Positions 42,486-64,000 of a stretch of DNA of 64,000 bases are shown here, one piece after another; position 1 is the stretch's first letter; the number at the start of each line of letters is the position of its first letter. The DNA lies in contig JACSRE010000188.1 of NCBI GenBank assembly GCA_014879945.1, forward strand, positions 1-64,000, written 5' to 3'. The notes beneath the pieces were generated by a model, which ran no database searches, had not been told where the DNA came from, and saw only the letters and a list, made by a program, of their open reading frames with translations. The stretch is from Myxococcus sp. GTDB taxonomy: Bacteria > Myxococcota > Myxococcia > Myxococcales > Myxococcaceae. Made by a program: the position numbers and the translations under genes.

Positions 42486-43292
42486 ATGTCTCTTGATGAA
42501 GAGGCGATCGCCGAGAAGCTCGCTGAGCTGGAGCCCGCGTGGGCTGGCCGACCGAGCGTGTTCTCGGCCGAGATCGCGAAGAAAGACGTCGACGCGATCA
42601 CCGCGCGGCTCGACGACACCTTGCCCGCGGTGCGAGGCGACGCCGCCGAGGCCCTCGGCCAGCTCAAGGCGACGGCCGCGACCCCCAGGCTCAAGGCCAT
42701 GCTGCAGGACCCTAACGTGGGCGTGCGCCGCTCGGCGGCCATCGCGCTCGCCATGCTCGGCAACGAGGAGCTCGCAAAGGAGTTCGTGAAGAGCCTCGTC
42801 GACGGGAGCGCCAAGGTCGTCGCCGGCGCGGCCTCGGCCCTGGGGCTTTCGGGCTACAAGCCTGCGGTGCCGTACCTCTTGAAGGCCTACCGCACCGAGC
42901 ACCCGCGGGTGGCTGCCGCCATCGCCACCGCGCTCGGCCAGCTCGGCGATCGACAGGCGGTGCCCTGGCTGGTGGCCGCCATGAAGACCGGGCTCGCCCC
43001 CGTCGAGGCCGCCGCCGCGCTCGGTGAGCTCAACGATCCGTCGGCCACCAGGCCGCTGTGCGAGGCGCTGGCGCACGAGCTGCCCGCGCTGCGCGCCGCC
43101 GCCGCCCGCTCGCTCGGTCGCCTCGCACAGGCCGGGAGCGTCGACTTCGTGCTCAAGGACCAGGCCCTCGCCGCCCTCCACAAGCTCGTGTCCGACGCTG
43201 ACGAGCGGGTTCGCTTCTGTGCCGCGCTCGCCCTCGCCGGCTTCGGCGACCCCGTCGGCAAGACCCAGCTCAAGCAGCTCCTCGCTTCCTGA
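42486..43292 (+). CDS. HEAT-repeat protein at the edge of the T3S locus
   Basis: A 268-residue protein built of about seven HEAT-like helical pairs, such as LPAVRGDAAEALGQLKATAA, PNVGVRRSAAIALAMLGNEE and PRVAAAIATALGQLGDRQAV. Repeats of about 30 residues cover nearly the whole length. It has no enzyme motif and no export signal. HEAT arrays act as protein-binding scaffolds, so a role as assembly or regulatory factor of the secretion machine is possible from context only. GGGAGGG ribosome-binding site. Confidence 0.85.
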   Translation: MSLDEEAIAEKLAELEPAWAGRPSVFSAEIAKKDVDAITARLDDTLPAVRGDAAEALGQLKATAATPRLKAMLQDPNVGVRRSAAIALAMLGNEELAKEFVKSLVDGSAKVVAGAASALGLSGYKPAVPYLLKAYRTEHPRVAAAIATALGQLGDRQAVPWLVAAMKTGLAPVEAAAALGELNDPSATRPLCEALAHELPALRAAAARSLGRLAQAGSVDFVLKDQALAALHKLVSDADERVRFCAALALAGFGDPVGKTQLKQLLAS

Positions 43293-43318
43293 TTCCCTTC
43301 CTTGACCGGAGAACCACC

Positions 43319-43585
43319 ATGGCCGCCCGCCGCAACGAAGAGCCCACCCGCATTCCCATGCCGCAACCCGAGTACCCCGTGATCGCGACCTTCGTCGACG
43401 CGGCGCAGCAGGCCGACATCGACAACCTCTTCAGCGACGTGCGCGAGGGGCTCGCCGCCTTGAAGGGCCCCAAGGCCGAGCAGGCCAAAAAGGTCGCCAA
43501 GGCCCTCGAGCGCACCGAGGAGCTGATGTCGCACCTGCTCCAAGTGCGCGAAAAGATTGCCTCGGAGCGAAAGGGGAAGCGGTAA
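43319..43585 (+). CDS. small helical protein of the T3S locus
   Basis: An 88-residue protein behind a GGAG site. After a Pro-rich N-terminus (IPMPQPEYP) it is helical (AQQADIDNLFSDVREGLAALK, then a Lys/Glu-rich coiled coil). Family not recognised. Size, charge and position in the locus would fit a small chaperone or regulator, but nothing in sequence proves that. Confidence 0.6.
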   Translation: MAARRNEEPTRIPMPQPEYPVIATFVDAAQQADIDNLFSDVREGLAALKGPKAEQAKKVAKALERTEELMSHLLQVREKIASERKGKR

Positions 43586-43704
43586 GGGCGGGGGCCTCGC
43601 AACTCAGGCGGTGATTCGTCGAAAATGAGAACACAGGGCAGCGCTGGCAGGTGCTGGCGGATTCGAGACCCTGACACTTCACGCAGCTCCCAGGAGGTTT
43701 TCCC

Positions 43705-44238: not shown

Positions 44239-44266
44239 GCGACGTCTTCTGAGGCAGCACCCACCG

Positions 44267-44292
44267 AGGGCGACCGGCAACGGTCGCCCTTT
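44267..44292 (+). terminator. intrinsic terminator after the needle-like gene
   Basis: A perfect 10-bp stem (44267-44276, AGGGCGACCG, with 44281-44290) closed by a GCAA tetraloop. The T tract is short (TTT, then GTGC), so read-through into the TPR gene is possible. Confidence 0.7.
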
Positions 44293-44338
44293 GTGCTATT
44301 CAGGGCCCCGGTTTCTCAACCGAAAGGACAGCGCCCTC

Positions 44339-45031
44339 ATGGCCGAGACGAAGTCAGACATCGCCGGCAGCATCCTCCCCGTCAGCAAGCACCAGGCGAT
44401 GCTGATGCTGGAGTCGGTGTACCTGTGGATGGATCTGGGGAAGTTCGAGCACGCGCGCGAGCTCGCCAACGGCGCCGCGGCGCTCATGCCGAAGACCAAG
44501 CAGGTGCAGTTCGCCCTCGGCACCATCGAGTTCAACCAGCAGAAGTACGACAAGGCGCTCCAGGCCTTCCGCGCCGCCCAGCGGCTCGATCCGAAGAGCG
44601 CGCTGGCGCGGGCGCACTGCGCTGAAGCGCTCATCTTCATGGCGAAGACGGGCGAGGCGCTCAAGGAGCTCCAGAGCGCCCGTGATCTCGAGGACGACGG
44701 CGGTGTTCCCGAGTTCGCCTACCGGCTCACCGTGTTCGCGGGGATCGGTGAGGTCGAGCGCGCGCTCAAGGAGCCCAACGACAAGAAGCGCGCCGAGCGG
44801 TTCGACCTGGCCGTGCGGGCCTACCAGCTGGCCGCCAAGTTCGAGCCCGAGCGCGCCGAGCCCCGAGTTCGGCTCGGTGAGGTCTACGTGTTGACGGGCA
44901 AGAACACCGAAGCGAAGGCCGCGATCGACGCCGGGCTGAAGCTCGGCCCCTCGGACGAAGAGAAGGCCATGGCCGAGAAGCTGCTCGAGATCGCGAGCGG
45001 CAAGGTGAAGGAAGCACCGAAGAAGCGCTAG
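44339..45031 (+). CDS. TPR protein of the T3S locus
   Basis: A 230-residue protein with about five TPR-like helical pairs (AMLMLESVYLWMDLGKFEHA, VQFALGTIEFNQQKYDKALQ and AFRAAQRLDPKSALARAHCAE are typical). No signal peptide. TPR proteins in T3S loci act as class II chaperones (SycD/LcrH) or as SctG/PscG-type needle chaperones. It is the first gene after the needle-like protein, so a chaperone role for it is plausible. Start ATG 44339 follows AAAGGA. Confidence 0.78.
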   Translation: MAETKSDIAGSILPVSKHQAMLMLESVYLWMDLGKFEHARELANGAAALMPKTKQVQFALGTIEFNQQKYDKALQAFRAAQRLDPKSALARAHCAEALIFMAKTGEALKELQSARDLEDDGGVPEFAYRLTVFAGIGEVERALKEPNDKKRAERFDLAVRAYQLAAKFEPERAEPRVRLGEVYVLTGKNTEAKAAIDAGLKLGPSDEEKAMAEKLLEIASGKVKEAPKKR

Positions 45032-45053
45032 GCTTCTTCGAATCGAGGAGCAC

Positions 45054-45464
45054 ATGTCCGTTCGAGGTGTTGGTCGAGGTGGCAAGGCCGGTGGAGCAGG
45101 GCGAGCGGGCGCTGCCGGCGGCGCCAGTGGCCCCGCCAAGGCGGGCGGCGCGTTCGGCGGCAAGGTCGATCGCACCGAGTCGCTGGCGGCGCCATCTGGG
45201 CTGGTCGGCTCCTCGAACGTCGGCGCGACCGCCGCCACCAACCCCGTCGTCGCGCAGGCCCTCGACATCGCCCGCCAGATGAAGAGCGGGCAGATCAAGA
45301 GCCGCGACGAAGCCACCAAGAAGCTCGTCCAGGACATCTTGCGCGACAAGGTCCGCACGCAGTCCAAGCACCTCACCGAGAAGATCGTCGAGCAACTCAA
45401 AGACGATCCCCGCCTGGCCCAGACGCTCGAGCGCCTGTGGACCAAGGCAGAGCAAGAGGAGTAA
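45054..45464 (+). CDS. hypothetical protein of the T3S locus
   Basis: A 136-residue protein with a Gly/Ala/Lys-rich disordered N-terminus (about 1-55), followed by helices (NPVVAQALDIARQMKSGQIK, then EQLKDDPRLAQTLERLWTKA). No family recognised. Disordered N-terminus plus helical C-terminus is also the layout of many T3S substrates and small chaperones. GGAG before ATG; its 3' end carries the ribosome-binding site (AGAGGAG) for the sigma factor gene. Confidence 0.65.
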   Translation: MSVRGVGRGGKAGGAGRAGAAGGASGPAKAGGAFGGKVDRTESLAAPSGLVGSSNVGATAATNPVVAQALDIARQMKSGQIKSRDEATKKLVQDILRDKVRTQSKHLTEKIVEQLKDDPRLAQTLERLWTKAEQEE

Positions 45465-45470
45465 CCGCAC

Positions 45471-46349
45471 TTGCCTCTCGCGGAATCGAAGGCGCAGATC
45501 CTTGAGAAGTACGGCGCCTACGTCCGGTCGCTGGCTGCCCAGGTGCGCAAGCAGTTCAACTCCCAGTTCGAGATGGACGAGCTCGTCGCGTGGGGCCAGG
45601 TCGGGCTGCTCGAGGCCGCCGAGCGGTTCGATGCGCGGGTCGGCGCGAACTTTCTGACGTTCGCGCACTACCGCATCAAGGGCGCCATCTACGACGGCTT
45701 GCGCAAGATGGGCGTGCTCAAGGGCGGCGCGGCGGGTGGTGAGCGCGCCAACGCCTACCTGGGCAACCTCTCAGACCGCGAAGGGGGCGGGGGCGGGCTC
45801 GAAGACGAGGTCGAGCGCATCTCGAGCGCCGTCACCGGCCTGGCGATGGTGTTCGGCACCAGCCTGGACGGCGCCGACGCCATGCAGATGTCGGATGATG
45901 TGCTCCCTGCGGACGAGCGCATTCAGCTGGAGCAGATGCGCCGGCGGGTGCGCGGGGCCATCGAGAAGCTCCCGGAAAAAGAGCGAAAACTGCTCCAGGG
46001 TTACTACTTCCAGAACAAGACCCTGGAAGAGGCGGGCGCTGAGATCGGGCAGTCGAAGAGCTGGGCCAGCCGACTCCACGCGCGGGCAGTTGAACGGTTG
46101 AAGCAACTTCTCGAAGATGAAGACGATAACGAACCTGTAGACGACTTGAGGAGGCATCACCATGGCGGGTCCCCTGGCAGGAATCTCGGCGGCGCAAATC
46201 GCCCAGCAGAAGCTCCCTCAGCAGCAGGTCTCCCAGCAGGCCAAGGCGGGGCCAAGCTCGTTCGACAAGGCCATGAAGAGCCAGGGCGTCGACCAGGCTC
46301 AGAAGCCCCAGCAGGTGCAGGCCACCCAGCAGGTCCAGCACGCCGATAA
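45471..46349 (+). CDS. FliA/WhiG-type sigma factor with long out-of-frame overlap into sctI
   Basis: A sigma-70 family factor of the flagellar/WhiG class. Region 2 is FEMDELVAWGQVGLLEAAERF plus the following TFAHYRIKGAIYDGLRK, and region 4 is LLQGYYFQNKTLEEAGAEIG, then SKSWASRLHARAVERL (DNA-recognition helix), ending near residue 215. As read, the frame continues to 292 residues. The last 62 or so are Gly/Arg/Pro/His-rich and encoded over the 5' end of sctI in another frame; they are probably not functional, or reflect a frameshift (a TAG in the +1 frame at 46138-46140). TTG start follows AGAGGAG. It probably drives T3S genes; no FlgM-like anti-sigma is seen. Confidence 0.82.
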   Translation: MPLAESKAQILEKYGAYVRSLAAQVRKQFNSQFEMDELVAWGQVGLLEAAERFDARVGANFLTFAHYRIKGAIYDGLRKMGVLKGGAAGGERANAYLGNLSDREGGGGGLEDEVERISSAVTGLAMVFGTSLDGADAMQMSDDVLPADERIQLEQMRRRVRGAIEKLPEKERKLLQGYYFQNKTLEEAGAEIGQSKSWASRLHARAVERLKQLLEDEDDNEPVDDLRRHHHGGSPGRNLGGANRPAEAPSAAGLPAGQGGAKLVRQGHEEPGRRPGSEAPAGAGHPAGPARR

Positions 46350-46686
46350 GGCGCGGCAGGTCGAGCAGGCGGGCAAGATCGAGAAGTCCAGCCTCAACAA
46401 GGTCTCTGACAAGATGACCTCGAAGGGCATGGACCCGGTGGCCCAGAAGGCCGAGGTCAACAAGGGCACGGGCCTGCTCAAGGGCCTCGTCGCCAACATG
46501 GAGAAGGGCCAGGCCTCGATCGACAAGCTGATCAACGGCGGCCTCAACGGCGCGAACTTCTCGAACACCCAGATGCTCTCGATGCAGGCCGGCATGTACA
46601 AGTACACGCAGGAGCTCGAGCTGACCGGCAAGGTCGTCGAGAAGGCCACCAGCGGCCTGAAGGACACGCTCAAGACCCAGGTCTGA
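46162..46686 (+). CDS. sctI: SctI-type inner rod protein
   Basis: A 174-residue protein. The C-terminal third (FSNTQMLSMQAGMYKYTQEL, then ELTGKVVEKATSGLKDTLKT plus QV) fits the YscI/PrgJ inner-rod family, which links export gate and needle inside the basal body. The N-terminal 70 residues are Gln-rich (many QQ and QAQ). Length is longer than injectisome SctI (about 80-120 residues). It has a strong GAGGAGG ribosome-binding site and is followed by its own terminator. It overlaps the sigma factor frame by 188 bases. Confidence 0.82.
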   Translation: MAGPLAGISAAQIAQQKLPQQQVSQQAKAGPSSFDKAMKSQGVDQAQKPQQVQATQQVQHADKARQVEQAGKIEKSSLNKVSDKMTSKGMDPVAQKAEVNKGTGLLKGLVANMEKGQASIDKLINGGLNGANFSNTQMLSMQAGMYKYTQELELTGKVVEKATSGLKDTLKTQV

Positions 46687-46776: not shown

Positions 46777-47580
46777 ATGCCCCGGCACTTCTTTCGCGTC
46801 GTCCTCGTTCTGGCTGCCCTTGGTTTGTCCGCATGCTCGGTCGAGCTGCAGCACGACCTCCCCGAAGACGACGCCAACGACATCTACGTCCTCCTCCAGT
46901 TCCACGGCATCAGCGCCGCGAAGATGAAGGAGGAGGGCGGCAACGAGCCCCGCTACATCATCAGCGTGCCCAAGCAGGACGTGGCCGCCGCGGCCCAGCT
47001 GCTCAAGGATCACTCGCTGCCGCGCCCCAAGGCCGACGGCCTGGCCATCTTCAAGAAGATGAAGGGCATGATCCCCACGCAGACCGAAGAGCGGGCCATG
47101 TTCATCGAGGCGCTCGCGGGCGAGGTGTCGAACACGCTCAACCGCATTCCAGGGGTGCTCGAGGCCCGCGCGATCGTGATGATCCCCGAGGTGAACGATC
47201 TGACGCAGCCCGAGAAGCGGCCCTCGCCCTCGGCCTCGGTCTTCATCAAGTTCACCCCCGAAGACGGCAAGCCGCCGGTCACGCCGGCCGAGGTGCAGGA
47301 GTTCGTCGCCAACTCGGTCAGCGAGATGAAGAAAGAGAACGTGAAGGTGCTGATGATCGAGGCCAAGGCGGCCTCGTCAGCCGACGTCGAGCCCGAGAAG
47401 CGCATGCAGTCGGTGCTCGGGCTGCGCATGGAGAAGGCCAGCGGCGACTCGTTCAAGGTGATGGTGGCGGTCAACGCGCTGCTCTTCCTCGCGCTGGCCG
47501 GCGTGGCGGCGTTCCTCGTCATTCGGAAACCGGGCGGGAGCGGCAATGGCCGCCCGTCGCGCAAGACGCAGGAAGGCTGA
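46777..47580 (+). CDS. sctJ: SctJ inner-membrane ring lipoprotein (YscJ/PrgK/FliF-N)
   Basis: A 267-residue lipoprotein: signal MPRHFFRVVLVLAALGLSAC with acylated C20. The first ring-building motif contains DLPEDDANDIYVLLQFHGI, and the second is VSNTLNRIPGVLEARAIVMI. A single C-terminal span (MVAVNALLFLALAGVAAFLV, about 228-247) and a short cytosolic tail follow. Size and topology are those of injectisome SctJ; flagellar FliF is about twice as long with a FliG-binding tail, which this lacks. It begins the sctJ to sctU operon. Confidence 0.93.
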   Translation: MPRHFFRVVLVLAALGLSACSVELQHDLPEDDANDIYVLLQFHGISAAKMKEEGGNEPRYIISVPKQDVAAAAQLLKDHSLPRPKADGLAIFKKMKGMIPTQTEERAMFIEALAGEVSNTLNRIPGVLEARAIVMIPEVNDLTQPEKRPSPSASVFIKFTPEDGKPPVTPAEVQEFVANSVSEMKKENVKVLMIEAKAASSADVEPEKRMQSVLGLRMEKASGDSFKVMVAVNALLFLALAGVAAFLVIRKPGGSGNGRPSRKTQEG

Positions 47581-47605: not shown

Positions 47606-49075
47606 GTGGAACAGTTCTTCGCGTCACTCTCGAAGCGGCAGACGATGCTGCTGCTGACGTCGCTGGCGTTCGGCGGCTCCGACGCGATCGGCTCGTTCGA
47701 GCACTTGGCGCCTGAAGAAGAGGAGCTGCTCAAGCACCGGGCGCAGAGCCTCCTGCAGATCCCCCGCGACAAGCGCATTCCGCTCGTCATTCAAGAGATC
47801 AAGCGCATCGTCACCATGCGGCGGCGGCAGCTGGCCAACGCCGACCCCAGGCGGCTGGCGGCGCTGCTGTCGAAGGAGCGCAGCTCGATGGTCGAGGTGG
47901 TGCTGCGGGCGCTCCCGTCGGAGCTGGCCGACGCCTGCCGCGCTGAGCTCGGCCCGCGCCCGACCGTCAAGCTCGGGCGCGACGTGCGCCCCGACATTCT
48001 CTCGATCGTTCGTTGGAAGCTCGAGGAGGGCCTCAAGCAGGGCGCGCCGCAGGTCGGCATGTTCCGCTTCACCGATCTGCTGATGATGCCGCAGCGAGAG
48101 GTGATCTCGATCTGCGACCGCATGGGCGCCCGCGTCCTCGCGACGGCCGTCGCGGGCCTGAGCGACGGCGATCGCGAGGAGTTCTTCGGAAAGCTCCCGC
48201 CCGATCAGCGCGCGTTGGCGGCGAAGGCGGCCGAGGCGGGCAGGGCGCGCAGGCTGTCGGAGGCCGACGCCAGGACGGTGCTCGAGATCCACGGCGCGCT
48301 CGAGAACCCCTCGACGGGCATGCGCTCGGCCGGCGCGCAGCGGGTGATGCGGGCCGCGGTGGCCCAGGCGCCGGAGTTCGCGCAGCGCCTCGTCGAGCGG
48401 CACCTCAGCGGTGATCTCGGGAAGGTCCTCCAGCGGTGGCTGCGGGAAGAGAAGAACAAGCCCGTCAAAGGAGACGGCGGCAGGCTCGACATCGTCGAGC
48501 AGATCGAGCGCCTCGCGCAGAAGGGGGTCATCGATCGCCCGCTGCGGTTGCCGCCGCCCATGCGGCCGCCCGAGGCGATGGGGCCGCCGGTGCTGCAGCC
48601 CGTGCAGCCCTCGGCCGCGCCGCCCTCGCGGCGGAGCTCGTCGGGCAACCTCCCGCCCGTGCGCGGCGCGTCCCCGCCTCCGCCGGAGCCGGCACCGCCG
48701 GCCAGACCCGAGGGCCGGCCGGCCCGTCGCCCCGAGGGCCAGGGCGCGGGGGCGCCTCGTCGTGACCCCATCGCCGAGCGCAACGCCCGCCGCGCCGGGG
48801 TCGCCTCGTCGCGGCCTCCCCCGGCGTCGGGCGCGAACCTGCCGGTGAGCCGCAACGCGAACGACCCCTCGGCGTCAGGGGTGCGCCGCATCATGCGCGA
48901 CGGGAAGCCCCTGGCCAGAGATCCCGCGGCGCCGGCCCAGCCGGCCAGGCCGCCACGTCGCGCGATGACCTCCCCGGCCGTGCAGGAGGTGCCCAAACGC
49001 CGAGAGCGCGCACCAGACGGCAGCCCGCTCCCCAAGGGGTCGTCGGGGCGTGGACCGCGCGGAGGATCGGGCTAG
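47606..49075 (+). CDS. FliG-like protein in the SctK position
   Basis: A 489-residue protein. Residues about 60-155 resemble the FliG middle domain (LAALLSKERSSMVEVVLRALPSE). Residues 158-235 resemble the FliG C-terminal ARM part: MFRFTDLLMMPQREVISICD, then LATAVAGLSDGDREEFFGKL and RLSEADARTVLEIHGAL. The charged torque helix of FliG is not recognisable. Residues 300-489 form a Pro/Arg/Ala-rich disordered tail absent from FliG. In injectisomes the gene between sctJ and sctL encodes SctK, the adaptor between ring and sorting platform; a FliG-like protein would play the same structural part. Assignment is by pattern, not by a computed alignment. Confidence 0.7.
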   Translation: MEQFFASLSKRQTMLLLTSLAFGGSDAIGSFEHLAPEEEELLKHRAQSLLQIPRDKRIPLVIQEIKRIVTMRRRQLANADPRRLAALLSKERSSMVEVVLRALPSELADACRAELGPRPTVKLGRDVRPDILSIVRWKLEEGLKQGAPQVGMFRFTDLLMMPQREVISICDRMGARVLATAVAGLSDGDREEFFGKLPPDQRALAAKAAEAGRARRLSEADARTVLEIHGALENPSTGMRSAGAQRVMRAAVAQAPEFAQRLVERHLSGDLGKVLQRWLREEKNKPVKGDGGRLDIVEQIERLAQKGVIDRPLRLPPPMRPPEAMGPPVLQPVQPSAAPPSRRSSSGNLPPVRGASPPPPEPAPPARPEGRPARRPEGQGAGAPRRDPIAERNARRAGVASSRPPPASGANLPVSRNANDPSASGVRRIMRDGKPLARDPAAPAQPARPPRRAMTSPAVQEVPKRRERAPDGSPLPKGSSGRGPRGGSG

Positions 49076-49086: not shown

Positions 49087-49782
49087 ATGGAAGACGAACG
49101 TCGGCCACCCTCCCGCGTGTTGGGGAAGGTCATCAAGAGCGACAGCGGCGAGCACGGGCCCGTGTCGGAGAAGCCCCTCTTGCCTCCGCCCCGCCGCGGA
49201 GGTGTCGTCAACGCCGAGGAGTTCGAGGCGATGACAGCGGCCAAGCAGATCATCGCCGACGCCCAGCGCAAGGCCGAGGAGATCAAGACCGAGGCGCTCC
49301 GCTTCAAGGAAGAGGTCTTCTCGAAGGCCCGAGACGAGGCCAAGGCCGACGTTCAGGCCCGCGCCGCCGAGGAGCTGGCGCGCGCCAAGATGCAGGCCGG
49401 CGCGATCGTCGCCGACGCCGAGAAAGACGTGCTGGAGCTGGCCCTCAAGATGTCGGCGAAGATCATCGGCCGCGACCTCGAGCGCGACCCTGCGGTGGTG
49501 CTCGAGATCTGCGCCACGGCCATCGAGGCCGCGCGCGGGTCGAAGGCCATGGTGCTCAAGGTGCACCCCGAAGACGGCAAGGTGCTGCGCGAGAAGCGGC
49601 CCCGGCTGATGGAGCTCATCGGGCGCGCGGTGGACATCGCGATTCGCGACGACGCCGAGGTGGAGCGCGGCGGCTGCGTGATCCAGACCGAGTACGGCGT
49701 GATCGACGGTCAGATCCGCACCCAGTTCGAGATGCTCAAGAACGTGCTGATGCCCGATGGCCAGAAGAAGGAATCGAAATAG
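49087..49782 (+). CDS. sctL: SctL stator / ATPase regulator (YscL/FliH family)
   Basis: A 231-residue cytosolic protein. The N-terminal part is disordered and Pro-rich. A long Glu/Lys/Ala coiled coil (AAKQIIADAQRKAEEIKTEA and on, about 50-110) leads to the C-terminal domain of the FliH/YscL/V-ATPase E-type (AMVLKVHPEDGKVLREKRPR, VERGGCVIQTEYGVIDGQI). In the machine it ties the SctN ATPase to the cytosolic platform. Placed between the FliG-like gene and sctN, 2 bases before the latter. Confidence 0.92.
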   Translation: MEDERRPPSRVLGKVIKSDSGEHGPVSEKPLLPPPRRGGVVNAEEFEAMTAAKQIIADAQRKAEEIKTEALRFKEEVFSKARDEAKADVQARAAEELARAKMQAGAIVADAEKDVLELALKMSAKIIGRDLERDPAVVLEICATAIEAARGSKAMVLKVHPEDGKVLREKRPRLMELIGRAVDIAIRDDAEVERGGCVIQTEYGVIDGQIRTQFEMLKNVLMPDGQKKESK

Positions 49783-54581: not shown

Positions 54582-54600
54582 TCGACTGGACCCCTCGCAC

Positions 54601-55673: not shown

Positions 55674-56504
55674 ATGGATCTGCCGGGCCTTCTCACCGAA
55701 GTCCGCAACCAGCTGGGCATCCAGACCGACCTCACGCAGGTCATGCTGGCCTTTGCCCTGTTGATGGGGCGCGTGCTCCCGGTGGTGATGCTGACCCCGT
55801 TCCTGGGCGGCGAGAGCGTGCCGTCTGAGGTGAAGCTGGGGCTCGGGGTGATGCTGGGGCTGGTGCTCTACCCGCTGTTGATCGCCCAGACCCGCGACGT
55901 GCCGGTCTCGCCGCTCATCTTCATCGCGCTGATGCTCAAGGAGCTCTTCATCGGGCTCTCGCTGACGATGGTGGTGAACATCATCTTCGACGCGGCGAAC
56001 GTGGCGGGCGGGCTCATCGACGTGATGTCGGGCACCAACCAGGCCCAGCTCTTCGTGCCCCAGCTCGGCCAGCAGGTGACGCTGTTCGCGAACCTCAACC
56101 TGCAGCTGACCACCGTGACGTTCCTGACCTTGAACGGCCACCACCTGGTCATCGAGGCCTTCGCCGACAGCCTGGCGTTGATTCGCCTCGATCAGGTGCC
56201 CCAGTTCAGCTCGGGCTTCTGGCCGTTCTTCGACACCGTCATTCGCATCTCGGGCGACATGTTGCGCATCGCGCTGGCCATCGCCTCGCCGGTGCTGCTG
56301 GCCACCTTCCTCACCGACCTCGCGCTCGGCATGATCAACCGCGTCGCGCCCCAGGTACAGGTGTTCTTCGTGGCCATGCAGATCAAGCCCGCCGTCACCA
56401 TCATGATCATGCTGACGGCCATGCACCTCATCTTGAGCCGCTCGGTCGAGGAGTTCGGGGTGATGTTCCGCTGGTTGAAGCTCGCCATTTCACTCCTCGC
56501 GTGA
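55674..56504 (+). CDS. sctT: SctT export-gate protein (FliR/YscT)
   Basis: A 276-residue protein with about six to seven membrane spans. Family segments are FALLMGRVLPVVMLTPFLGG, LGLVLYPLLIAQ, LMLKELFIGLSLTMVVNIIF and FLTLNGHHLVIEAF, with LALGMINRVAPQVQVFFV near the C-terminus. It completes the SctRST gate. ATG 55674 comes 6 bases after the sctS stop. Confidence 0.95.
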   Translation: MDLPGLLTEVRNQLGIQTDLTQVMLAFALLMGRVLPVVMLTPFLGGESVPSEVKLGLGVMLGLVLYPLLIAQTRDVPVSPLIFIALMLKELFIGLSLTMVVNIIFDAANVAGGLIDVMSGTNQAQLFVPQLGQQVTLFANLNLQLTTVTFLTLNGHHLVIEAFADSLALIRLDQVPQFSSGFWPFFDTVIRISGDMLRIALAIASPVLLATFLTDLALGMINRVAPQVQVFFVAMQIKPAVTIMIMLTAMHLILSRSVEEFGVMFRWLKLAISLLA

Positions 56505-56516: not shown

Positions 56517-57596
56517 ATGTCCGAGGGAGGTGACAAGACCGAGGAGCCGTCTCAAAAGAAGCTCGACGACGCACGCAAGGAAGGCAGCGTGTGGAAGTCG
56601 AAGGACCTGTCGGGCGTCTTCGCCTTCGCCATCGCGATGGGGGTGGTGAAGTCGACGTGGAGCACGGTCGAAGAGCGCATCACCATGCTCTTCCACTTCG
56701 TCTTCGATCACATCGCGCACCCGGTCGCGCTGAACATGGCGATCGCCCAGCTGCTCGCGCTGGCCCTCAGCACGCTGCTCTTGCTGTGCATTCCCATCGC
56801 GTTCTCGGCGGCCATCGCCGGCGGGCTGGTCGAGTTCCTCCAGGTCGGGCCGCTGCTGGCGATCAACGCGCTGATGCCGAAGCTCGACAAGCTCAACCCC
56901 ATCAGCGGGCTGAAGAACCTGATCGGCAAGAAGCAGATCATCGAGCTGGTGAAGTCCATGGCCAAGCTGGGCGTCACCGGCTGGGTCGTCTACGGCGTGG
57001 TGCGCGACGCCATGGCGCTGGTGGTGGCCACCATCTCGGGCGACGTCGCGATGACCATGACCGTGCTGGGGGAGCTGGTCTCGCGCGTCGTCACCAAGGT
57101 CACGATGCTCTTCATCGGCTTCGCGATCTTCGACGTCTGGTGGCAGCACAAGTCGTACATGAAGGACCAGATGATGTCGAAGGACGACGTCAAGAAGGAG
57201 TACAAGCAGAGCGAAGGCGACCCGCACCACAAGGCGCACCGCAAGCAGATGCACCAGGAGATCATGGAGGGCGCCCAGATGGAGGCCGTGCAGGGCGCCG
57301 ACGTGATCGTCACCAACCCAGACCACGTCGCGGTGGCCCTCAAGTACGATCGCGATCGCGACGGCGCGCCCCGGGTGCTGGCCAAGGGGCTCGACTTCAA
57401 GGCCGAGAAGATCAAGGCCATCGCGCGCGAGTCAGAGGTGCCCATGCTCCGCAACGTGCCGCTGGCGCACGCGCTGCTGCGCACCGAGGTCGGCCAGGAG
57501 GTGCCCGAGGAGCTCTACGACGCGGTCGCCGAGGTGCTGAACTTCGTCTACCAGCTCAAGAACCCGGCCCCCGCGCCGGCGCGCGCTTCGTCGTAG
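56517..57596 (+). CDS. sctU: SctU substrate-switch protein (FlhB/YscU) with NPDH in place of NPTH
   Basis: A 359-residue protein: four membrane spans in residues 25-210, a linker, and the cytosolic switch domain from about 225. The self-cleavage site is normally NPTH; here it reads NPDH (267-270), followed by the usual VAVALKYDRDRDGAPRVLAK. Cleavage occurs between Asn and Pro and helps the switch in substrate class; a change of Thr to Asp may alter it. The C-terminal EVGQEVPEELYDAVAEVL is typical. A free copy of the switch domain is encoded just downstream. Confidence 0.95.
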   Translation: MSEGGDKTEEPSQKKLDDARKEGSVWKSKDLSGVFAFAIAMGVVKSTWSTVEERITMLFHFVFDHIAHPVALNMAIAQLLALALSTLLLLCIPIAFSAAIAGGLVEFLQVGPLLAINALMPKLDKLNPISGLKNLIGKKQIIELVKSMAKLGVTGWVVYGVVRDAMALVVATISGDVAMTMTVLGELVSRVVTKVTMLFIGFAIFDVWWQHKSYMKDQMMSKDDVKKEYKQSEGDPHHKAHRKQMHQEIMEGAQMEAVQGADVIVTNPDHVAVALKYDRDRDGAPRVLAKGLDFKAEKIKAIARESEVPMLRNVPLAHALLRTEVGQEVPEELYDAVAEVLNFVYQLKNPAPAPARASS

Positions 57597-57622: not shown

Positions 57623-57895
57623 GTGGCTGAAGACCCCGAGATGGCGATCGCCCTGAAGTACGACCGCGAGAAGGACGGCGCGCCGCGCGTCATCGCCAAG
57701 GGCATGCGGCTCAAGGCCGAGAAGATCAAGGAGCTCGCCAGGGCGGCCGGCGTGCCCTTCATGAAGAACACCACCCTGGCGGCGGCGCTCTATCGCGTCG
57801 ACGTCGGCCAGGAGGTGCCCGAAGAGCTCTATGACGCGGTCGCCGAGGTCTTGAACTTCGTGTACGCGCTGCAGCAGGAACAGAAGAAGAAGTGA
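57623..57895 (+). CDS. stand-alone FlhB/SctU C-terminal domain protein
   Basis: A 90-residue protein nearly collinear with the switch domain of the preceding SctU after its cleavage site (AIALKYDREKDGAPRVIAKG and VDVGQEVPEELYDAVAEVLN). The N-P-x-H site and membrane part are absent; the N-terminus is MAEDPEMAIALKYD. Similar small proteins (FhlB/YlqH) occur in flagellar bacteria and can partly replace the FlhB C-terminal part. Probably a local duplication of the sctU 3' end. It starts at GTG without a Shine-Dalgarno. Confidence 0.88.
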   Translation: MAEDPEMAIALKYDREKDGAPRVIAKGMRLKAEKIKELARAAGVPFMKNTTLAAALYRVDVGQEVPEELYDAVAEVLNFVYALQQEQKKK

Positions 57896-57915: not shown

Positions 57916-58389
57916 ATGGCGAAGGTCGGACAACAGCCCAAAGCACCGCTGTGGCCATGGGGCGGGCCGCGCAGCGTCCGCGACAAGCTCGTCGACAAGA
58001 CGCAGGTCACCACCAAGGCCAAGAAGAAGGGCGACCCGAAGAACCCCGCCCTGGCCTCGGCCGCGCTGCTCGACTTCATCGCGCCCGCGCACTCCGCCGA
58101 GGAGCTGCGCCTGCCGATGCCGCCGATGCCCATGGGGCACGGCGGCGATCTCGAGGGCTTCCTCGACCGCCCATACGTCTCCACCGTCGCCGAGCGCATG
58201 AGCGAGTACCGCCAGTCGGAGCTCGAGCGGGGCATGACGGCCGTACGCGCCGCGCCCGAGCGCGTGGAGCGGCTCCGCTCGCTCCTCCAGCGCGAGGCGC
58301 AGATGCTCAACCTGGTCGGCACCGTGGGCGAGGCGATGAGCGAGGTCGAGCGCCGCCGTCGCGAAGAGCAGGCCGAAGAGGCGTTCTGA
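57916..58389 (+). CDS. hypothetical protein of the T3S locus
   Basis: A 157-residue protein. Pro/Lys-rich N-terminus, a middle segment with many Met and Pro (LRLPMPPMPMGHGGD), and a helical Arg/Glu-rich C-terminal half (AAPERVERLRSLLQREAQML) suggest a partly disordered protein with a coiled coil. Family not recognised. It directly precedes a SycD-like chaperone gene (1-base gap), so it may be a chaperone partner or an export-control protein. Confidence 0.62.
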   Translation: MAKVGQQPKAPLWPWGGPRSVRDKLVDKTQVTTKAKKKGDPKNPALASAALLDFIAPAHSAEELRLPMPPMPMGHGGDLEGFLDRPYVSTVAERMSEYRQSELERGMTAVRAAPERVERLRSLLQREAQMLNLVGTVGEAMSEVERRRREEQAEEAF

Positions 58390-58390
58390 G

Positions 58391-58846
58391 ATGGCCGACA
58401 ACGACGCCGCCCTCGCCAGCCGCCTGCAGAAGTGGGCCGACGGGAAGGCCACCCTCAAGGACGTGCGCGGCTACAGCGACGAGGAGCTCTACTCCATCGC
58501 GCGCATGGGCTATTTCTTCTTCTACCAGGGCAAGCTCGAAGAAGCGCGAACCCTGTTCCAGGGGCTGTATGCGGTCAATCCGCTCGACCCCTATTTTGCA
58601 AAGGCGCTTGGCGTTGTGGAGATGGCCGCCGGAAACGCGGCCGGCGCGATGGCCGCCTATGATGTCTGTCTGAAGCTTTCTCCACAGGATTCAGCGGCTT
58701 ACGTTGGTCGCGCCGAGGTGAAGGTGGCCCAGGGCCAGCGCTCGGCAGCGGTCGAAGATCTTCGCCGCGCGGCCCAGTTCGTCCGCCCTGAAGACCCACT
58801 CAAGGAGAAGATCGGGGCACTTCTGCAGCGGCTTTCCAGAAAGTAA
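58391..58846 (+). CDS. SycD/LcrH-like TPR chaperone
   Basis: A 151-residue protein with three TPRs matching class II T3S chaperones: YSIARMGYFFFYQGKLEEAR, then FQGLYAVNPLDPYFAKALGV and AYDVCLKLSPQDSAAYVGRA. SycD/LcrH proteins keep hydrophobic translocators soluble before export. The next gene encodes a hydrophobic, amphipathic protein and is the obvious client. Size is right for the family (about 150-170). Confidence 0.85.
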   Translation: MADNDAALASRLQKWADGKATLKDVRGYSDEELYSIARMGYFFFYQGKLEEARTLFQGLYAVNPLDPYFAKALGVVEMAAGNAAGAMAAYDVCLKLSPQDSAAYVGRAEVKVAQGQRSAAVEDLRRAAQFVRPEDPLKEKIGALLQRLSRK

Positions 58847-58932: not shown

Positions 58933-59574
58933 ATGGCCATGCTCAGCCGCATCACCTCCTTCGTTAAGCCCTTCGTCAGCAACGTCATCAAGTCGGTTGC
59001 CCCCGGCGCCATCGACGCGCTCAAGGGCATCGCCGGCAAGGGCATCGACAGCCTCTTCCAGGCGGGCGCCAAGGGCCTCCAGGGTCTGCTCGGCAACATT
59101 CCTTTCCTCGGGCCCCTCGCTTCCAACCTGGTCGGCAAGTACGCCCCCGGTCTGGCTGACGTCGCCAAGAACTTCCTCAACGGCAACCTCGACAAGCTCC
59201 TCGGCCAGATCGTCGGCCAGCCCACCTCGCGTCCTGTTCCCGGCGCTCCGGCCGGCACCACGGTGACCCCGCCGTCCATCGCCACCCCGGGCCGCACCGA
59301 GTCGATCATCGCCAACACCCCGGCGCCCGCGCCTTCCTTCAGCGGCGCGGCCTCGACCGGCGTCGGCTCCGGCGCCACTCCGAGCGGCGGCTTCCCCTCG
59401 TACCCGACGCCCCCGAAGGACCCGAAGGACCTGGCGGCGCAGAACAAGTTCCAGGAAGACATGTTCAACTTCCAGCAGGCCTCGCAGAACCTGAACATGT
59501 ACTGGCAGATGATGCAGAACACCCTGAAGTCGATGGGCGACACGCTCCGCAACTCGATCGGCGCTCTCCGCTAA
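58933..59574 (+). CDS. putative T3S translocator or filament subunit
   Basis: A 213-residue protein. The N-terminal 95 residues are amphipathic and hydrophobic (IDSLFQAGAKGLQGLLGNIP, FLGPLASNLVGKYAPGLADV), as in membrane-active translocators. A Pro/Ser/Gly-rich linker (97-165) follows, then a C-terminal amphipathic helix (FQQASQNLNMYWQMMQNTLK, SMGDTLRNSIGALR) whose pattern resembles both the 43705-44238 product and needle proteins. It follows a SycD-like chaperone gene and has its own strong terminator. It could be a translocator, tip or needle-type subunit. The start at 58933 has no strong Shine-Dalgarno. Confidence 0.6.
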   Translation: MAMLSRITSFVKPFVSNVIKSVAPGAIDALKGIAGKGIDSLFQAGAKGLQGLLGNIPFLGPLASNLVGKYAPGLADVAKNFLNGNLDKLLGQIVGQPTSRPVPGAPAGTTVTPPSIATPGRTESIIANTPAPAPSFSGAASTGVGSGATPSGGFPSYPTPPKDPKDLAAQNKFQEDMFNFQQASQNLNMYWQMMQNTLKSMGDTLRNSIGALR

Positions 59575-59602
59575 TGACAGCGAGCTAGACCTCGCTAGAA
59601 TG

Positions 59603-59637
59603 AACTGGGGACTTCTTCGGAGGTCCCCAGTTTTTTT
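59603..59637 (+). terminator. very strong intrinsic terminator
   Basis: A 13-bp stem (59603-59615 with 59620-59632, one G-T wobble) closed by a C(TTCG)G tetraloop and followed by seven T (59631-59637). This is the clearest terminator in the window and ends the putative translocator gene. Confidence 0.93.
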
Positions 59638-59671
59638 GTTTTCACCCAACGAACGTGGCCTGAGGGGAACA

Positions 59672-60304
59672 ATGAGCAACGACAAGAAGGAACCGCCGAA
59701 GCCGATCGCGCCTGACGTGCCGGTGACGGCGACGGGCCAGGTGATCAGTGGCGAGGTCACCAAGGACTACGAGAAGATCCTCTACACCCCTGAGCGTCAG
59801 AAGATGCTCCAGAAGGGTGAGCTGACCCTGAAGGACTACCACGCCATCAGCGGCCCCGAGATGCTGCAGATGGCGCTGATCGGGTTCCGCATGTACGAGA
59901 ACGGCAAGTACAGCGAGGCCGAGACGATCTTCAACGGCCTCATCGCGCTCGATCCGCGCGAGGCGTACTACTACACGGCGCTCGGCGCGGTGTACCTGGC
60001 CCAGGACGAGTTCGAGCGCGCCAAGCACAACTTCGACACCGCGCTCGCGTTCAACCCCAAGGAGCTCGCCGCCTACGTCAACCGCGGCGAGGTCCACCTG
60101 CGCATGGGCAACGTCATGGAGGCCGCCACCGACTTCAAGTCGGCCGTCGATCTCGACCCCTCCGGCAAGGACCCCCTCGTGATTCGCGCGCGGGTGCTTG
60201 CGGCTGCTGCGCTCGAGCTCATCGAGAACGCCCAGAACGAGGGCAAGGAGCCGGCCAAGAGCGCCGAGCCCGCGAAGAAGCCTGCGCCCGCGAAGAAGAA
60301 GTGA
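59672..60304 (+). CDS. SycD-like TPR protein with Lys/Pro tail
   Basis: A 210-residue protein. A 60-residue N-terminal extension precedes three TPRs (MLQMALIGFRMYENGKYSEA, then YYYTALGAVYLAQDEFERAK and AYVNRGEVHLRMGNVMEAAT), and a Lys/Ala/Pro tail follows. The TPR block matches the SycD/LcrH arrangement. Its stop overlaps the start of the next TPR gene (GTGA), so the two are coupled and may form a pair, as in heterodimeric chaperones. AGGGGA before ATG. Confidence 0.82.
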   Translation: MSNDKKEPPKPIAPDVPVTATGQVISGEVTKDYEKILYTPERQKMLQKGELTLKDYHAISGPEMLQMALIGFRMYENGKYSEAETIFNGLIALDPREAYYYTALGAVYLAQDEFERAKHNFDTALAFNPKELAAYVNRGEVHLRMGNVMEAATDFKSAVDLDPSGKDPLVIRARVLAAAALELIENAQNEGKEPAKSAEPAKKPAPAKKK

Positions 60305-60921
60305 CGCGCGCGGTGAAGGGGTCGTCTCGGAAGCACACGCCGGTGCCGGTCGTCTACTTCCCCAAGAAGGCGACGAGGACCGTCAGCCGAACCCAGACGA
60401 TCCCCGAGCTGTTCCTCGGTGACGAGATCAAGACCGAAGAGCTCGACACCTCCGAGCGCCGCTCCAAACGGCGCTCGAAGAGCGGCTCGGTGCCCCGCGT
60501 CACCCTGAGCGACGAGACGCCCGCTCCCCTGGCCGACACCGAGGCCGAGCAGGCGCGGGCCGACATGGCCGCCCTGGGGCATGAGCTCTTCTCGAGGGGC
60601 AAGATCGGTGAAGCCCGGGTGATCTTCGAGGGGCTCGCGGCCGACGCCGCCGACGCCTTCGTCTTCACCATGCTGGGCACCATTCACCTCGCGCAGAACG
60701 AGCTCGACAAGGCGCTGGCGCGCTTCGAAGAGGCCCTCAAGCTCGACCCGGAGGATCTGGCGGCGCTGGTGTACCGCGCCGAGATTCGGCTCCAGAAGAA
60801 GCGGGTGCGCCAGGCCATCGACGACCTCCAGAAGGCCATCGGCCTGGGCAGCGCGAGCGAGCCGTTCGTCGATCGCGCGCGCCGGCTGCTGCAGATGGCC
60901 AGGCGGGCAGTCAAGCGGTGA
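60301..60921 (+). CDS. SycD-like TPR protein with basic N-terminus
   Basis: A 206-residue protein. The first 85 residues are basic and Ser/Thr-rich (RRSKRRSKSGSV), then TPRs follow (LGHELFSRGKIGEARVIFEG, VFTMLGTIHLAQNELDKALA and YRAEIRLQKKRVRQAIDDLQ). It belongs to the same TPR group as the two preceding chaperone-like proteins, suggesting duplication within the locus. GTG start in a 4-base overlap with the previous gene. It is directly followed by sctV. Confidence 0.8.
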   Translation: MTRAVKGSSRKHTPVPVVYFPKKATRTVSRTQTIPELFLGDEIKTEELDTSERRSKRRSKSGSVPRVTLSDETPAPLADTEAEQARADMAALGHELFSRGKIGEARVIFEGLAADAADAFVFTMLGTIHLAQNELDKALARFEEALKLDPEDLAALVYRAEIRLQKKRVRQAIDDLQKAIGLGSASEPFVDRARRLLQMARRAVKR

Positions 60922-60960: not shown

Positions 60961-63090
60961 ATGGTCTCCGGCCCCAATAGCTTCCTCAGCAAGTACTCAG
61001 ACATCGTCCTCGCGATCATCGTGATCTCGATCATCGGCATGCTGATCGTGCCGCTGCCGACGCTCCTGCTCGACGTGCTGCTGACGGTGAACATCAGCCT
61101 GTCGGTCATCATCCTGCTGATGACCATCTACATCCCCGGGGCGCTGCAGTTCAGCGTGTTCCCCACGCTGCTGCTGCTCACCACGATGTACCGACTGTCG
61201 CTGACGGTCTCGACCACCCGGCTCATCCTCTCGACGGGTGACGCGGGCGAGGTCGTCTACGCCTTCGGCAACTTCGTGGCGCGCGGCAACTTCGTCGTCG
61301 GTGGCATCATCTTCGTGATTCTGGTGGTGGTGAACTTCATCGTCATCGCGAAGGGCTCCGAGCGCGTCTCGGAGGTCGCGGCCCGCTTCACCCTCGACGC
61401 CATGCCCGGCAAGCAGATGTCGATCGACGCCGACCTGCGCGCCGGGTCCATCGACATGGACGAGGGCAAGCGCAAGCGCCGCGACCTCGAGCGAGAGAGC
61501 CAGCTCTTCGGCGCCATGGACGGCGCCATGAAGTTCGTCAAAGGCGACGCCATCGCCGGCATCATCATCACCGTCATCAACGTCGTCGGCGGCCTCGCGA
61601 TCGGCGTGGCCCAGAAGGGCATGGCGGTCGGTGACGCGGCCAAGAAGTACTCGCTCCTGACCATCGGCGACGGCCTGGTCGGCATGATCCCCGCGATCCT
61701 CATCTCGACGGCGGCCGGCATCATCGTGACGCGCGTCGGCGGCGAAGAAGAGGGGGCCCACCTCGGTAAGGACATCGGCGGGCAGCTGGTCGCCTTCCCC
61801 CGCGCGATCGCCATCGCCGGCGGCATGTTGATCGGCCTGGGCCTCATTCCGGGTCTGCCCAAGGTGCCCTTCTTCATCATGGGCGCGCTGGCCGGCGGCG
61901 GCGCCTGGAAGCTGATGCAGAGCAACAAGAAGAAGGCCGAAGGCGGCGGTGACGGCGAGAGCGACGGCGAGCCCGGCGAAGACGGTGAGACGCCCGCGGC
62001 GGCCGAGCCCCAGCCCAAGGAGCCCATCAACCCCGACTCCGAGCTCTTCATCCCCGTGGTGACCCCGATCGTCATCGAGGTCTCCGACGCGCTGGTGCCC
62101 TTCGTGGACTCGCGGCAGGACGGCGGCAAGTTCCTCTACGAGCTGATTCCCTTCATGCGCGACGGGCTCTTCGTCGAGCTGGGCGTTCGCTTCCCCGGCG
62201 TTCGGGCGCGCGGTAACCCGGGGCTCCCGCCGGGCGCGTACCAGATTCAGATCAACGAGGTGCCGGTGGTGACGGGCCAGGCGACGCTCGGCCACATCCT
62301 GGTGAACGACACCGTCGATCGCCTGCGGCTGATGAACATCGACGGCTTCGAGGCGGTGAACCCCGCGACGCGGCAGCCGGCGGCGTGGGTGCCCGAGCAG
62401 AACAAAGAGATGCTCGAGTCGGCGGGCCTCACCACGTGGGACGTGCCGGGCTACATCATCCTGCACCTCGCCAGCGTGCTGCGCCGACAGGCGCGCGAGT
62501 TCCTGGGCGTTCAAGAAGTGCAGTCGATGCTCGATCAGCTCGAGAAGGCCTTCCCGGCGATCGTCAAAGAGGTCGTGCCCAAGGTCGTCACGGTGCTGAA
62601 GCTGACCGACGTGCTCGGGCGCCTCGTCGAGGAAGAGATCTCGATTCGAGACATGCGCGGCATCCTCCAGGCGATCGCGGAGCACGGGCAGACCGAAGCC
62701 GACAGCGTGATGCTGACCGAGCACGTGCGCTCGTCGCAGAAGCGCTACGTCTCGCACAAGTACGCGCGCGGCACGAACACGCTGATCGTCTACCTGCTCG
62801 ACCCGCAGATCGAAGACGCGATTCGCAGCTCGATCAAGCGCACCTCGGCGGGCACGCACCTCGCGCTGGAGCCCGACATCGCGCAAGAGATCGTGCAGGC
62901 CGTGAAGAACGAGTGCGGCCACCTGCCGCCGACGGCGCAGCGGCCCGTCATCCTCACCTCGATGGACATCAGGCGCTACGTGCGCAAGCTGCTCGAGTAC
63001 GAGTTCAACCCGCCGTTCTCGGTGGTCAGCTACCAGGAGCTGTCGCCTGAGCTGAACATCCAGCCGGTGGCGCGCATCAGCACCCGCTGA
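60961..63090 (+). CDS. sctV: SctV major export-gate protein (FlhA/YscV)
   Basis: A 709-residue protein with about eight membrane spans in residues 15-325. The family (FHIPEP) motif region is FTLDAMPGKQMSIDADLRAG. A cytosolic linker (about 325-360, Gly/Glu/Asp-rich) leads to the nonameric ring domain (360-709) with SELFIPVVTPIVIEVSDALV and VLADVLLTV-like early spans. The cytosolic ring receives chaperone-substrate complexes. It stands apart from the sctJ-sctU operon, after three TPR chaperone genes, and has its own promoter-like element. Confidence 0.96.
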   Translation: MVSGPNSFLSKYSDIVLAIIVISIIGMLIVPLPTLLLDVLLTVNISLSVIILLMTIYIPGALQFSVFPTLLLLTTMYRLSLTVSTTRLILSTGDAGEVVYAFGNFVARGNFVVGGIIFVILVVVNFIVIAKGSERVSEVAARFTLDAMPGKQMSIDADLRAGSIDMDEGKRKRRDLERESQLFGAMDGAMKFVKGDAIAGIIITVINVVGGLAIGVAQKGMAVGDAAKKYSLLTIGDGLVGMIPAILISTAAGIIVTRVGGEEEGAHLGKDIGGQLVAFPRAIAIAGGMLIGLGLIPGLPKVPFFIMGALAGGGAWKLMQSNKKKAEGGGDGESDGEPGEDGETPAAAEPQPKEPINPDSELFIPVVTPIVIEVSDALVPFVDSRQDGGKFLYELIPFMRDGLFVELGVRFPGVRARGNPGLPPGAYQIQINEVPVVTGQATLGHILVNDTVDRLRLMNIDGFEAVNPATRQPAAWVPEQNKEMLESAGLTTWDVPGYIILHLASVLRRQAREFLGVQEVQSMLDQLEKAFPAIVKEVVPKVVTVLKLTDVLGRLVEEEISIRDMRGILQAIAEHGQTEADSVMLTEHVRSSQKRYVSHKYARGTNTLIVYLLDPQIEDAIRSSIKRTSAGTHLALEPDIAQEIVQAVKNECGHLPPTAQRPVILTSMDIRRYVRKLLEYEFNPPFSVVSYQELSPELNIQPVARISTR

Positions 63091-63099
63091 GCCGCGTCG

Positions 63100-64000
63100 T
63101 CAGGCGACGAAGACGAGCACCACCAGCACGATCGCGATCAAGACGAAGAGGCCCACCGCGCCGAGCGCGATCAGCGTCTGCTTGTTCGAGAAGTCGATGA
63201 GCTTGCCGTTGCCGGCGGGCTCGTCGTCGTCGAGCGGCGGATCTTCCGAGGTGTTGGCGGGGTTCTCGAGGCCGTCTTCGAGGGGCGCGTCAGGGTCGCC
63301 TTCGGGAGGAGGCTCGGCGGGGCTCTCGTCGGGTGGAGGCTCTTCTGCAGGGGCCTCCGGCTCTGGCTCGGGCTCGGGCTCGGGGGCCTGGGGCTCCTCG
63401 GCCACGCTGACGGTGCCTTCGTCGTGCTCCTGCGACTCCGACGGCATCAGCACGGGCGTCTCGCGCACCTCGGAAGGGTCGAGGAAGAGCAGCTTGACGC
63501 CGCCGATCTCGAGCTCGTCGCGGTCCTTGAGCGTCACCTTCTTGGTGCGCTTCTTGTTCACCTTGATGCCGTTGCGGCTCTCGAGATCTTCGACGTGCGT
63601 GCCAGACCAGTCGCGGCGCACCCGGGCGTGGCGCCTCGAGACGAGGTCGTCGTTGAGCACGATGTCGGCCGAGTCGTCGCGCCCGAAGACGTACTCCTGC
63701 GCGTCGCCCATCTCGATGCGCTGCCCCTCTTTGGGCCCGTTCATCACGCGGAAGTAGGGCTGCTCGCCCCCGCTGCCGAGGCCCTTCATCACGTCCTTCA
63801 CCAGGTTCCGGCTGACGAACATGGTGTTGCCGGCGTTGCTCTCGGTGACGTCGGCGATGCGATCGAACACCACGTCGAACTGGGCGATGGCGATGGTGTC
63901 GCCGTTGCTGAGCAGCTGCTTCTCTTTCTTCTTCAGCTTGGCGCCGTTGAGCAGGGTGCCGAAGCTCGAGCCGAGATCTTCGAGGAAGAAGAGGGTGCCG
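63100..64000 (-). CDS. double-FHA, tail-anchored protein (5' part beyond window)
   Basis: Partial: 299 codons visible, the N-terminus lies past 64000. The first FHA domain is seen from its C-terminal half (LEDLGSSFGTLLNGAKL). A second full FHA domain covers the next 130 residues (YVFGRDDSADIVLNDDLVSR, then VEDLESRNGIKVNKKR). A 75-residue Glu/Pro/Asp-rich linker leads to a single C-terminal span (TLIALGAVGLFVLIAIVLVV) with almost nothing after it. FHA domains bind phospho-Thr. SctD also has a cytosolic FHA and one span but needs a large periplasmic part, absent here. Convergent with sctV, 9 bases apart. Confidence 0.85.
   Translation of the reverse strand, partial: GTLFFLEDLGSSFGTLLNGAKLKKKEKQLLSNGDTIAIAQFDVVFDRIADVTESNAGNTMFVSRNLVKDVMKGLGSGGEQPYFRVMNGPKEGQRIEMGDAQEYVFGRDDSADIVLNDDLVSRRHARVRRDWSGTHVEDLESRNGIKVNKKRTKKVTLKDRDELEIGGVKLLFLDPSEVRETPVLMPSESQEHDEGTVSVAEEPQAPEPEPEPEPEAPAEEPPPDESPAEPPPEGDPDAPLEDGLENPANTSEDPPLDDDEPAGNGKLIDFSNKQTLIALGAVGLFVLIAIVLVVLVFVA

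Follow-up and report, generated by a model that had tools for sequence, protein, structure and literature searches.

A T3SS* locus from a flagellated myxobacterium encodes a FliG homologue and putative needle-type (SctF-like) proteins

Results

Gene content of the locus

The window (the whole stretch of DNA analysed, positions 1-64000 of the 67130-nucleotide contig C151) derives from a 7.7-Mb Myxococcus sp. genome and has a GC content of 68.6%. It contains a T3SS* locus that starts at ~43705 and ends at C151:64167, and thus extends beyond the window end (Table 1). A preliminary description of this DNA placed the start at 42486, where a HEAT-repeat gene absent from related loci is found. Its assignment of sctI, J, L, N, O, P, Q, R, S, T, U and V to a single locus was confirmed using NCBIfam and Pfam models, with SctI recognised at family level only (orthologues match PF17001 weakly); all of these genes are on the + strand. 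In addition to the sct genes, the locus contains a FliG-like gene, fliO, a sigma factor, four TPR genes and several conserved unknowns. The reading frames are intact with high third-position GC. The sctI-J-FliG-L-N-O-P-Q-FliO-R-S-T-U block is kept in tens of named Myxococcaceae contigs, and the gene set is therefore more than a chance assembly. NCBIfam injectisome models outscore their flagellar counterparts for J, N, Q, R, U and V; with S the two kinds score about alike, and with T the FliR model is slightly ahead.

The short injectisome-type SctJ, the FliM-FliN-like SctQ and the FliO-like protein described previously are all supported by profile matches, and no flagellin, hook, rod or stator gene is present among the locus genes scanned. 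The proposed FliP-type signal peptide of SctR corresponds to a signal peptide-like N terminus recognised by eye (MTRRLSYWFLFASVLLAPALAFA). For the proposed FliA-type sigma factor, FliA/WhiG models give the highest scores, but these lie far under the cut-offs (TIGR02479 104 bits vs 190). The small protein encoded directly 5' of the sigma factor could be an export-coupled anti-sigma factor like FlgM. The earlier gene list lacked both SctF-like genes as well as the stand-alone SctU C-terminal domain, a FlhB2-like protein encoded directly 3' of sctU and kept across T3SS* loci.

No secretin is encoded in the T3SS* locus, with the secretins of this genome located only on other contigs, and the locus contains no SctD with a periplasmic domain. 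Hence, an ordinary needle complex should not be assumed. A gene of the FHA+TM type is found 3' of sctV in other T3SS* loci too (14 matches), the window copy being convergent with sctV. It probably belongs to the locus, and its product is a possible SctD stand-in that does without the periplasmic part.

Table 1 Features of the T3SS* locus (window coordinates, unless preceded by the contig name).
Feature	Coordinates	Strand	Evidence
SctF-like (needle-type) protein 1, 177 aa	43705..44238	+	own-genome profile match E 5.6e-17; no individual Pfam/NCBIfam match
TPR protein adjoining SctF-like 1	44291..45031	+	Pfam TPR; kept in close relatives
small conserved protein directly 5' of sigma factor	45054..45464	+	kept in relatives; no convincing Pfam match
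FliA/WhiG-like sigma factor	45471..46349	+	Sigma70 r2 + r4; 3' end overlaps sctI
sctI, inner rod	46162..46686	+	family profile; third-position GC high
sctJ, lipoprotein ring	46777..47580	+	TIGR02544 135.6 bits vs 42.7 for FliF
FliG homologue without torque charges, proline-rich tail	47606..49075	+	Pfam FliG_C E 2e-10; profile; fold
sctL, ATPase stator	49087..49782	+	HrpE/YscL models E 5.6e-25
sctN, ATPase	49785..51107	+	TIGR02546 626 bits, over cut-off; FliI 590
sctO, stalk	51139..51642	+	PF16789 YscO-like E 4e-39
sctP/FliK-like length-control protein	51639..52640	+	PF02120 E 6e-6, under cut-off
sctQ, FliM- and FliN-like parts	52637..54034	+	TIGR02551 over cut-off; Pfam FliM, FliMN_C
fliO	54036..54581	+	PF04347 E 1e-11
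sctR, signal-peptide-like N terminus	54553..55389	+	TIGR01102 over cut-off
sctS	55401..55667	+	TIGR01402/01403
sctT	55674..56504	+	FliR 148 vs SctT 132 bits, both under cut-off
sctU	56517..57596	+	TIGR01404 over cut-off
stand-alone SctU/FlhB C-terminal domain	57623..57895	+	Pfam Bac_export_2 E 6.7e-27
orfB, conserved	57916..58389	+	no Pfam match; in most T3SS* loci
TPR protein B	58391..58846	+	Pfam TPR
SctF-like protein 2, 213 aa, hydrophobic N half	58933..59574	+	own-genome profile match E 8e-22 (in training set)
TPR protein C	59600..60304	+	Pfam TPR
TPR protein D	60301..60921	+	Pfam TPR
sctV, export gate	60961..63090	+	TIGR01399 807 bits, over cut-off; FlhA 683
two FHA domains + C-terminal TM	63100..64000, 5' end at C151:64167	-	Pfam FHA, Yop-YscD_cpl

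The locus is orthologous to M. xanthus T3SS*

A SctR scan of GTDB genomes yielded 80 loci, nearly all from Myxococcota. One class shows ~65-90% SctR identity and has the gene set of the window; a second shows about 50% SctR identity, with no sctN found. A few remoter loci lie between or beyond the two. In M. xanthus, the corresponding clusters are T3SS* (MXAN_2434-2464, with sctQ = MXAN_2445) and T3SS(2) (MXAN_5643-5654; PMC10196010). The window gene count fits MXAN_2434-2464 when anchored at sctQ, and the orthologous sctI,J,L,N,Q,R,S,T,U,V set is present in the conserved order, as for T3SS*. Judged by gene content and order, the window locus is the orthologue of the "needleless" predation system T3SS* of M. 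xanthus, i.e. the "Myxo" NF-T3SS, and its host is a flagellated organism related to Archangium and Myxococcus. A T3SS(2) orthologue is present on contigs C231 and C1 of the same genome.

M. xanthus T3SS* is recruited to prey together with the Kil (Tad) machine and is needed for prey lysis (PMC12075869), a function of the orthologue that the preliminary description had missed, while T3SS(2) is not involved in prey killing (PMC10196010). The published T3SS* deletion spans 2438-2451 (PMC12075869), which, counted from sctQ, would exactly cover sctI through the small SctU paralogue. The two T3SS* systems share gene set and order, SctR identity being 65-90% across the class, and both are free of a secretin. 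They differ in that the host of the window locus is flagellated and the SctF-like proteins encoded there are extended by a long stretch at the N terminus; furthermore, neither FliG nor needle-like genes are recognised in the published descriptions of M. xanthus T3SS* consulted here. M. xanthus T3SS(2) is a sister system (see below) that also has FliO and a SctF-like gene, together with a short protein weakly resembling FliG_N, but no sctN was found in T3SS(2) loci. FliO was published for both M. xanthus systems in 2025 (PMC12248157).

A FliG homologue devoid of torque-generating charges

The protein encoded between sctJ and sctL, previously described as FliG-like, is a genuine FliG homologue. 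FliG_C is matched by all 30 aligned orthologues (E below 0.1; best 1e-11) and FliG_M by 5 of the 30 (E below 0.1). A search of the PDB with the orthologue profile placed FliG in all 13 of the best matches (E down to 1.2e-11), and hhalign against flagellar FliG covered 203 columns with 97.6% probability. The AlphaFold2 model (pLDDT 84) has FliG as the best 11 of 117 Foldseek matches, each with E above 0.02. The gene occupies the sctK/fliG position, matching that of E. coli fliG, which is flanked by fliF and fliH, and the homologue is also present in the more distant relatives L070 and L076. Its M. xanthus counterpart is predicted to be MXAN_2440. Comparison of 40 sequences reveals that the torque-helix lysine and aspartate pair, whose roles we take from E. 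coli FliG, is not conserved. The torque-generating charges have been lost, making it very unlikely that this homologue drives rotation.

Abby & Rocha, using a FliG profile, reported FliG to be absent from Myxo systems (PMC3459982). Contrary to that report, T3SS* has a FliG homologue, and this looks to be a new observation. A review enters SctK as "FliG (?)" (PMC4045390); among the Foldseek matches listed for our model, SctK is absent. A short protein is encoded between sctJ and sctQ of T3SS(2) (L083:7717-8196; L006:8680-9117, minus strand), and only the L083 copy matches FliG_N. This match is weak (Pfam E 0.0024; Foldseek E above 1), and a PDB profile search with the short protein returned no FliG. 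A FliG-SctK link is suggestive only. Proteins of about 260-560 aa with clear FliG_C domains (54-89 bits) are also found outside T3S loci, in genomes G016, G020, G024, G025, G036 and G085. As the ~500-aa FliG_C proteins of family f3 do not lie in T3S loci, the notion of a graded series of FliG proteins was dropped.

SctF-like genes in T3SS* and T3SS(2) loci

Most T3SS* loci encode, between TPR genes B and C, a protein with last ~75 residues resembling SctF. The window has one copy at that position (protein 2) and another beside the first TPR gene (protein 1), the C-terminal ~75 residues being the needle-like part in both. T3SS(2) loci have one SctF-like gene directly before sctI. Known needles are helix-turn-helix proteins of about 80 aa, and the SctF-like proteins of Myxococcus, Hyalangium and Archangium measure about 71-90 aa (71-74 aa in Myxococcus-type loci, 74 aa in M. 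xanthus). The two window proteins, at 177 and 213 aa, exceed the length of known needles. In M. xanthus AM003 the SctF-like gene is at L063:6954-7178 on the minus strand, and there is a second, partial copy. Some loci contain tandem arrays of short SctF-like genes with up to seven copies. In Archangium-type genomes, such arrays hold six to seven short genes that are nearly identical (L077:15119-17852; G043 contig 1, ~9.32 Mb).

Taken singly, the window proteins gave no significant match in Pfam/NCBIfam or needle searches, and both copies are recognised as SctF-like only at family level. Of 43 family members, 28 have a PF09392 match (E below 1; best 2.5e-8). One long-form orthologue exceeds the Pfam needle cut-off (30.1 vs 29.4 bits), while the alignment of a 71-aa form takes in positions 4-71 of the needle model, itself 71 positions long (E 6.5e-5, under cut-off). 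A family profile trained without any injectisome sequence was run against 177,635 PDB sequences. The 13 best matches are all needle proteins or constructs derived from them (PrgI, MxiH and others; E 6e-6 to 1e-3). The top chain carries the label of a needle co-chaperone complex but aligns as a needle C-terminus, and two matches are needle fusions; that these are needles is our own reading. The best match outside the training family among 26,224 ORFs is the annotated SctF of Nitratidesulfovibrio (3.6e-6). When the clade of the window and injectisomes were left out of training, protein 1 was recovered at 5e-12 and protein 2 at 1e-3, with no unrelated ORF listed before E about 5.

The SctF-like profile has three strong matches in the genome of the window, all at T3S loci, and one weak match elsewhere (E 0.003). 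Across the order of the host, 122 of 145 genomes are matched by the profile, with SctR found in 121/145. Three SctR-positive genomes (G008, G009, G143) appear to be flagellar only and have no SctF-like match, four SctF-like-positive genomes miss the SctR threshold, and most genomes of the remaining families have neither. We considered whether the SctF-like proteins are SctI paralogues and rejected this, as members match PF09392, PF17001 is not among the families listed, and SctI is a separate gene.

The presence of SctF-type genes in T3SS* loci, including that of M. xanthus, suggests the "needleless" label is probably wrong at the gene level. The SctF-like genes look to be new, contrary to PMC3459982, PMC10433427 and PMC12075869. 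Since both FliG and SctF-like genes are also present in M. xanthus-type loci, it is the published description of T3SS* that is at fault, not the membership of the window locus. Alternatively, T3SS* could be truly needleless, with the SctF-like proteins being exported cargo (e.g. membrane-active) that shares only a SctF-type C-terminal helix and is passed to Kil pilus tips. The long hydrophobic N half of window forms, the many copies in some loci, weak matches of three A4 members to the translocator family SseC, and a published model in which Kil tips act as vehicles (PMC12075869) are all in keeping with cargo. However, the Myxococcus-type forms are exactly needle-sized, with one spanning nearly the entire needle model, and the top PDB profile matches are needles only. 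We regard a truly needleless T3SS* as rather unlikely, though deserving of serious attention.

Phylogenetic position and the genome's own flagellum

Six genes (N, R, S, T, U and V) from 39 taxa went into a maximum-likelihood tree (2101 sites, LG+F+G4, 1000 ultrafast bootstraps), which was read with flagella as the outgroup and included seven injectisomes only, all from plasmids and none from Chlamydiales. T3SS*, its distant relatives and T3SS(2) form one clade (UFBoot 98), sister to the seven injectisomes, which are themselves monophyletic (UFBoot 100). By this tree, the T3SS* export genes belong to the non-flagellar clade but branch outside every injectisome sampled. This reproduces the position of the "Myxo" group at the base of the non-flagellar branch obtained by Abby & Rocha in 2012 (PMC3459982), as the preliminary description had anticipated.

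Contig C206 encodes, separately from the locus, FlgC, FliE, FliF, FliG, FlgD, FlgE, MotA, MotB, FliL and FliM, and in addition flagellins and further export genes (by comparison and reading). A largely complete flagellar set is therefore present elsewhere in the genome, which the preliminary description had named as counting against its reading, but this does not overturn the tree placement. Given these hook, rod, stator and flagellin genes, the locus does not represent a stripped-down flagellum of this genome, and a decayed copy of the genome's own flagellum is rejected by the tree. T3SS* is an old, separate system alongside a flagellum.

The locus resembles both machineries. With injectisomes (Ysc, Hrp, rhizobial) it shares a short lipoprotein SctJ, SctI/SctF-type proteins, TPR genes and the export gate, whereas those systems have their own secretin, a SctD with a periplasmic part and SctK in place of FliG, and form a separate clade. 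The E. coli flagellar order fliFGHIJK-L-MNOPQR (F-G-H-I-J-K-MN-O-P-Q-R) parallels J-G-L-N-O-P-Q-FliO-R-S-T, with FliG and FliO homologues in both, but T3SS* lacks rod, hook, filament and stator genes, its SctJ is short and its FliG is without torque residues. It is possible to see here an evolutionary intermediate frozen between flagellum and injectisome, with FliG and FliO as ancestral retentions the main point. The sister position, the flagellar-like gene order, the FliP-type signal peptide and the occurrence of FliG in the remoter relatives fit such a reading. However, no extant lineage is itself an ancestor. Moreover, as this genome possesses a flagellum, FliG could have been reacquired from such a source, and the needle-like genes put T3SS* nearer to injectisomes than thought. 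As the principal account of the locus it is improbable, although compatible with the model proposed below and not exclusive of it. The intermediate character put forward in the preliminary description is supported as regards tree position and flagellum-type parts, but is not new: both Abby & Rocha 2012 (PMC3459982) and a 2023 review (PMC10433427) present the system as an intermediate, and the T3SS* system, its basal position and its FliO were likewise already known.

A degenerate injectisome relic devoid of function, as might be read from the missing secretin and translocon and from the word "degenerate" in an older annotation (in the passage of PMC10196010 citing Konovalova 2010), is scarcely credible given intact frames with high third-position GC, order and sequence kept across the family, and an M. 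xanthus orthologue required for prey lysis (PMC12075869).

Proposed model for T3SS*

By sequence, the locus encodes the full set for the inner-membrane type III export gate (SctRSTUV and FliO), a SctJ ring, a SctN/L/O ATPase complex and a SctQ sorting platform, as well as a FliG homologue in the place of injectisome SctK and two SctF-like proteins beside TPR genes. As the motor charges are gone and the locus encodes no stator, the FliG homologue would link SctJ to SctQ as a static scaffold or sorting platform. The TPR proteins would hold SctF-like subunits unassembled until export through the gate, that adjoining SctF-like protein 1 being a possible needle chaperone. Once exported, the subunits might assemble into a short rod or needle in the periplasm that lets lytic cargo out. 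As T3SS* itself has no secretin, it would probably borrow its outer-membrane exit from the Kil (Tad) machinery, and this genome has a Kil-like set of prepilin peptidase, secretin and FHA-T2SSE ATPase. By analogy with M. xanthus, where the prey-lysis phenotype comes from a deletion that does not separate FliG or needle genes, T3SS* may act at prey contact and lyse the prey. We consider this proposal as a whole (static FliG, TPR-chaperoned SctF-like subunits, Kil-lent exit and prey lysis) to have slightly better than even prospects. That T3SS* builds a real SctF needle on a static FliG-based C-ring and drives it into prey bacteria by way of a secretin borrowed from Kil/Tad is a more tentative and, in our view, doubtful extension.

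How the injectisome arose from the flagellum hinges on the gains and gaps of the basal group, published as being without FliG, needle and secretin, with delivery suggested to occur through another machine. FliG and SctF-type genes in this group alter the reconstruction of the ancestor, with FliG perhaps retained initially and a needle protein present at the base. The T3SS* FliG also bears on the open question of whether SctK is FliG. If needle, FliG C-ring and Kil exit all prove true, T3SS* would stand at the root of the injectisomes as an antibacterial member, its FliG taking the part played by SctK elsewhere. The SctF-like and FliG genes are concrete deletion targets for work on prey lysis in M. 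xanthus, which is a harmless bacterium of soil.

The T3SS* locus of M. xanthus AM003 was also found to encode a DUF1521 protein (L063:7398-8606; Pfam E 1.5e-14). This domain is known from the type III-secreted NopE1/NopE2 of Bradyrhizobium and from a Vibrio coralliilyticus protein (PMC6506597), making the DUF1521 protein a candidate T3SS* substrate.
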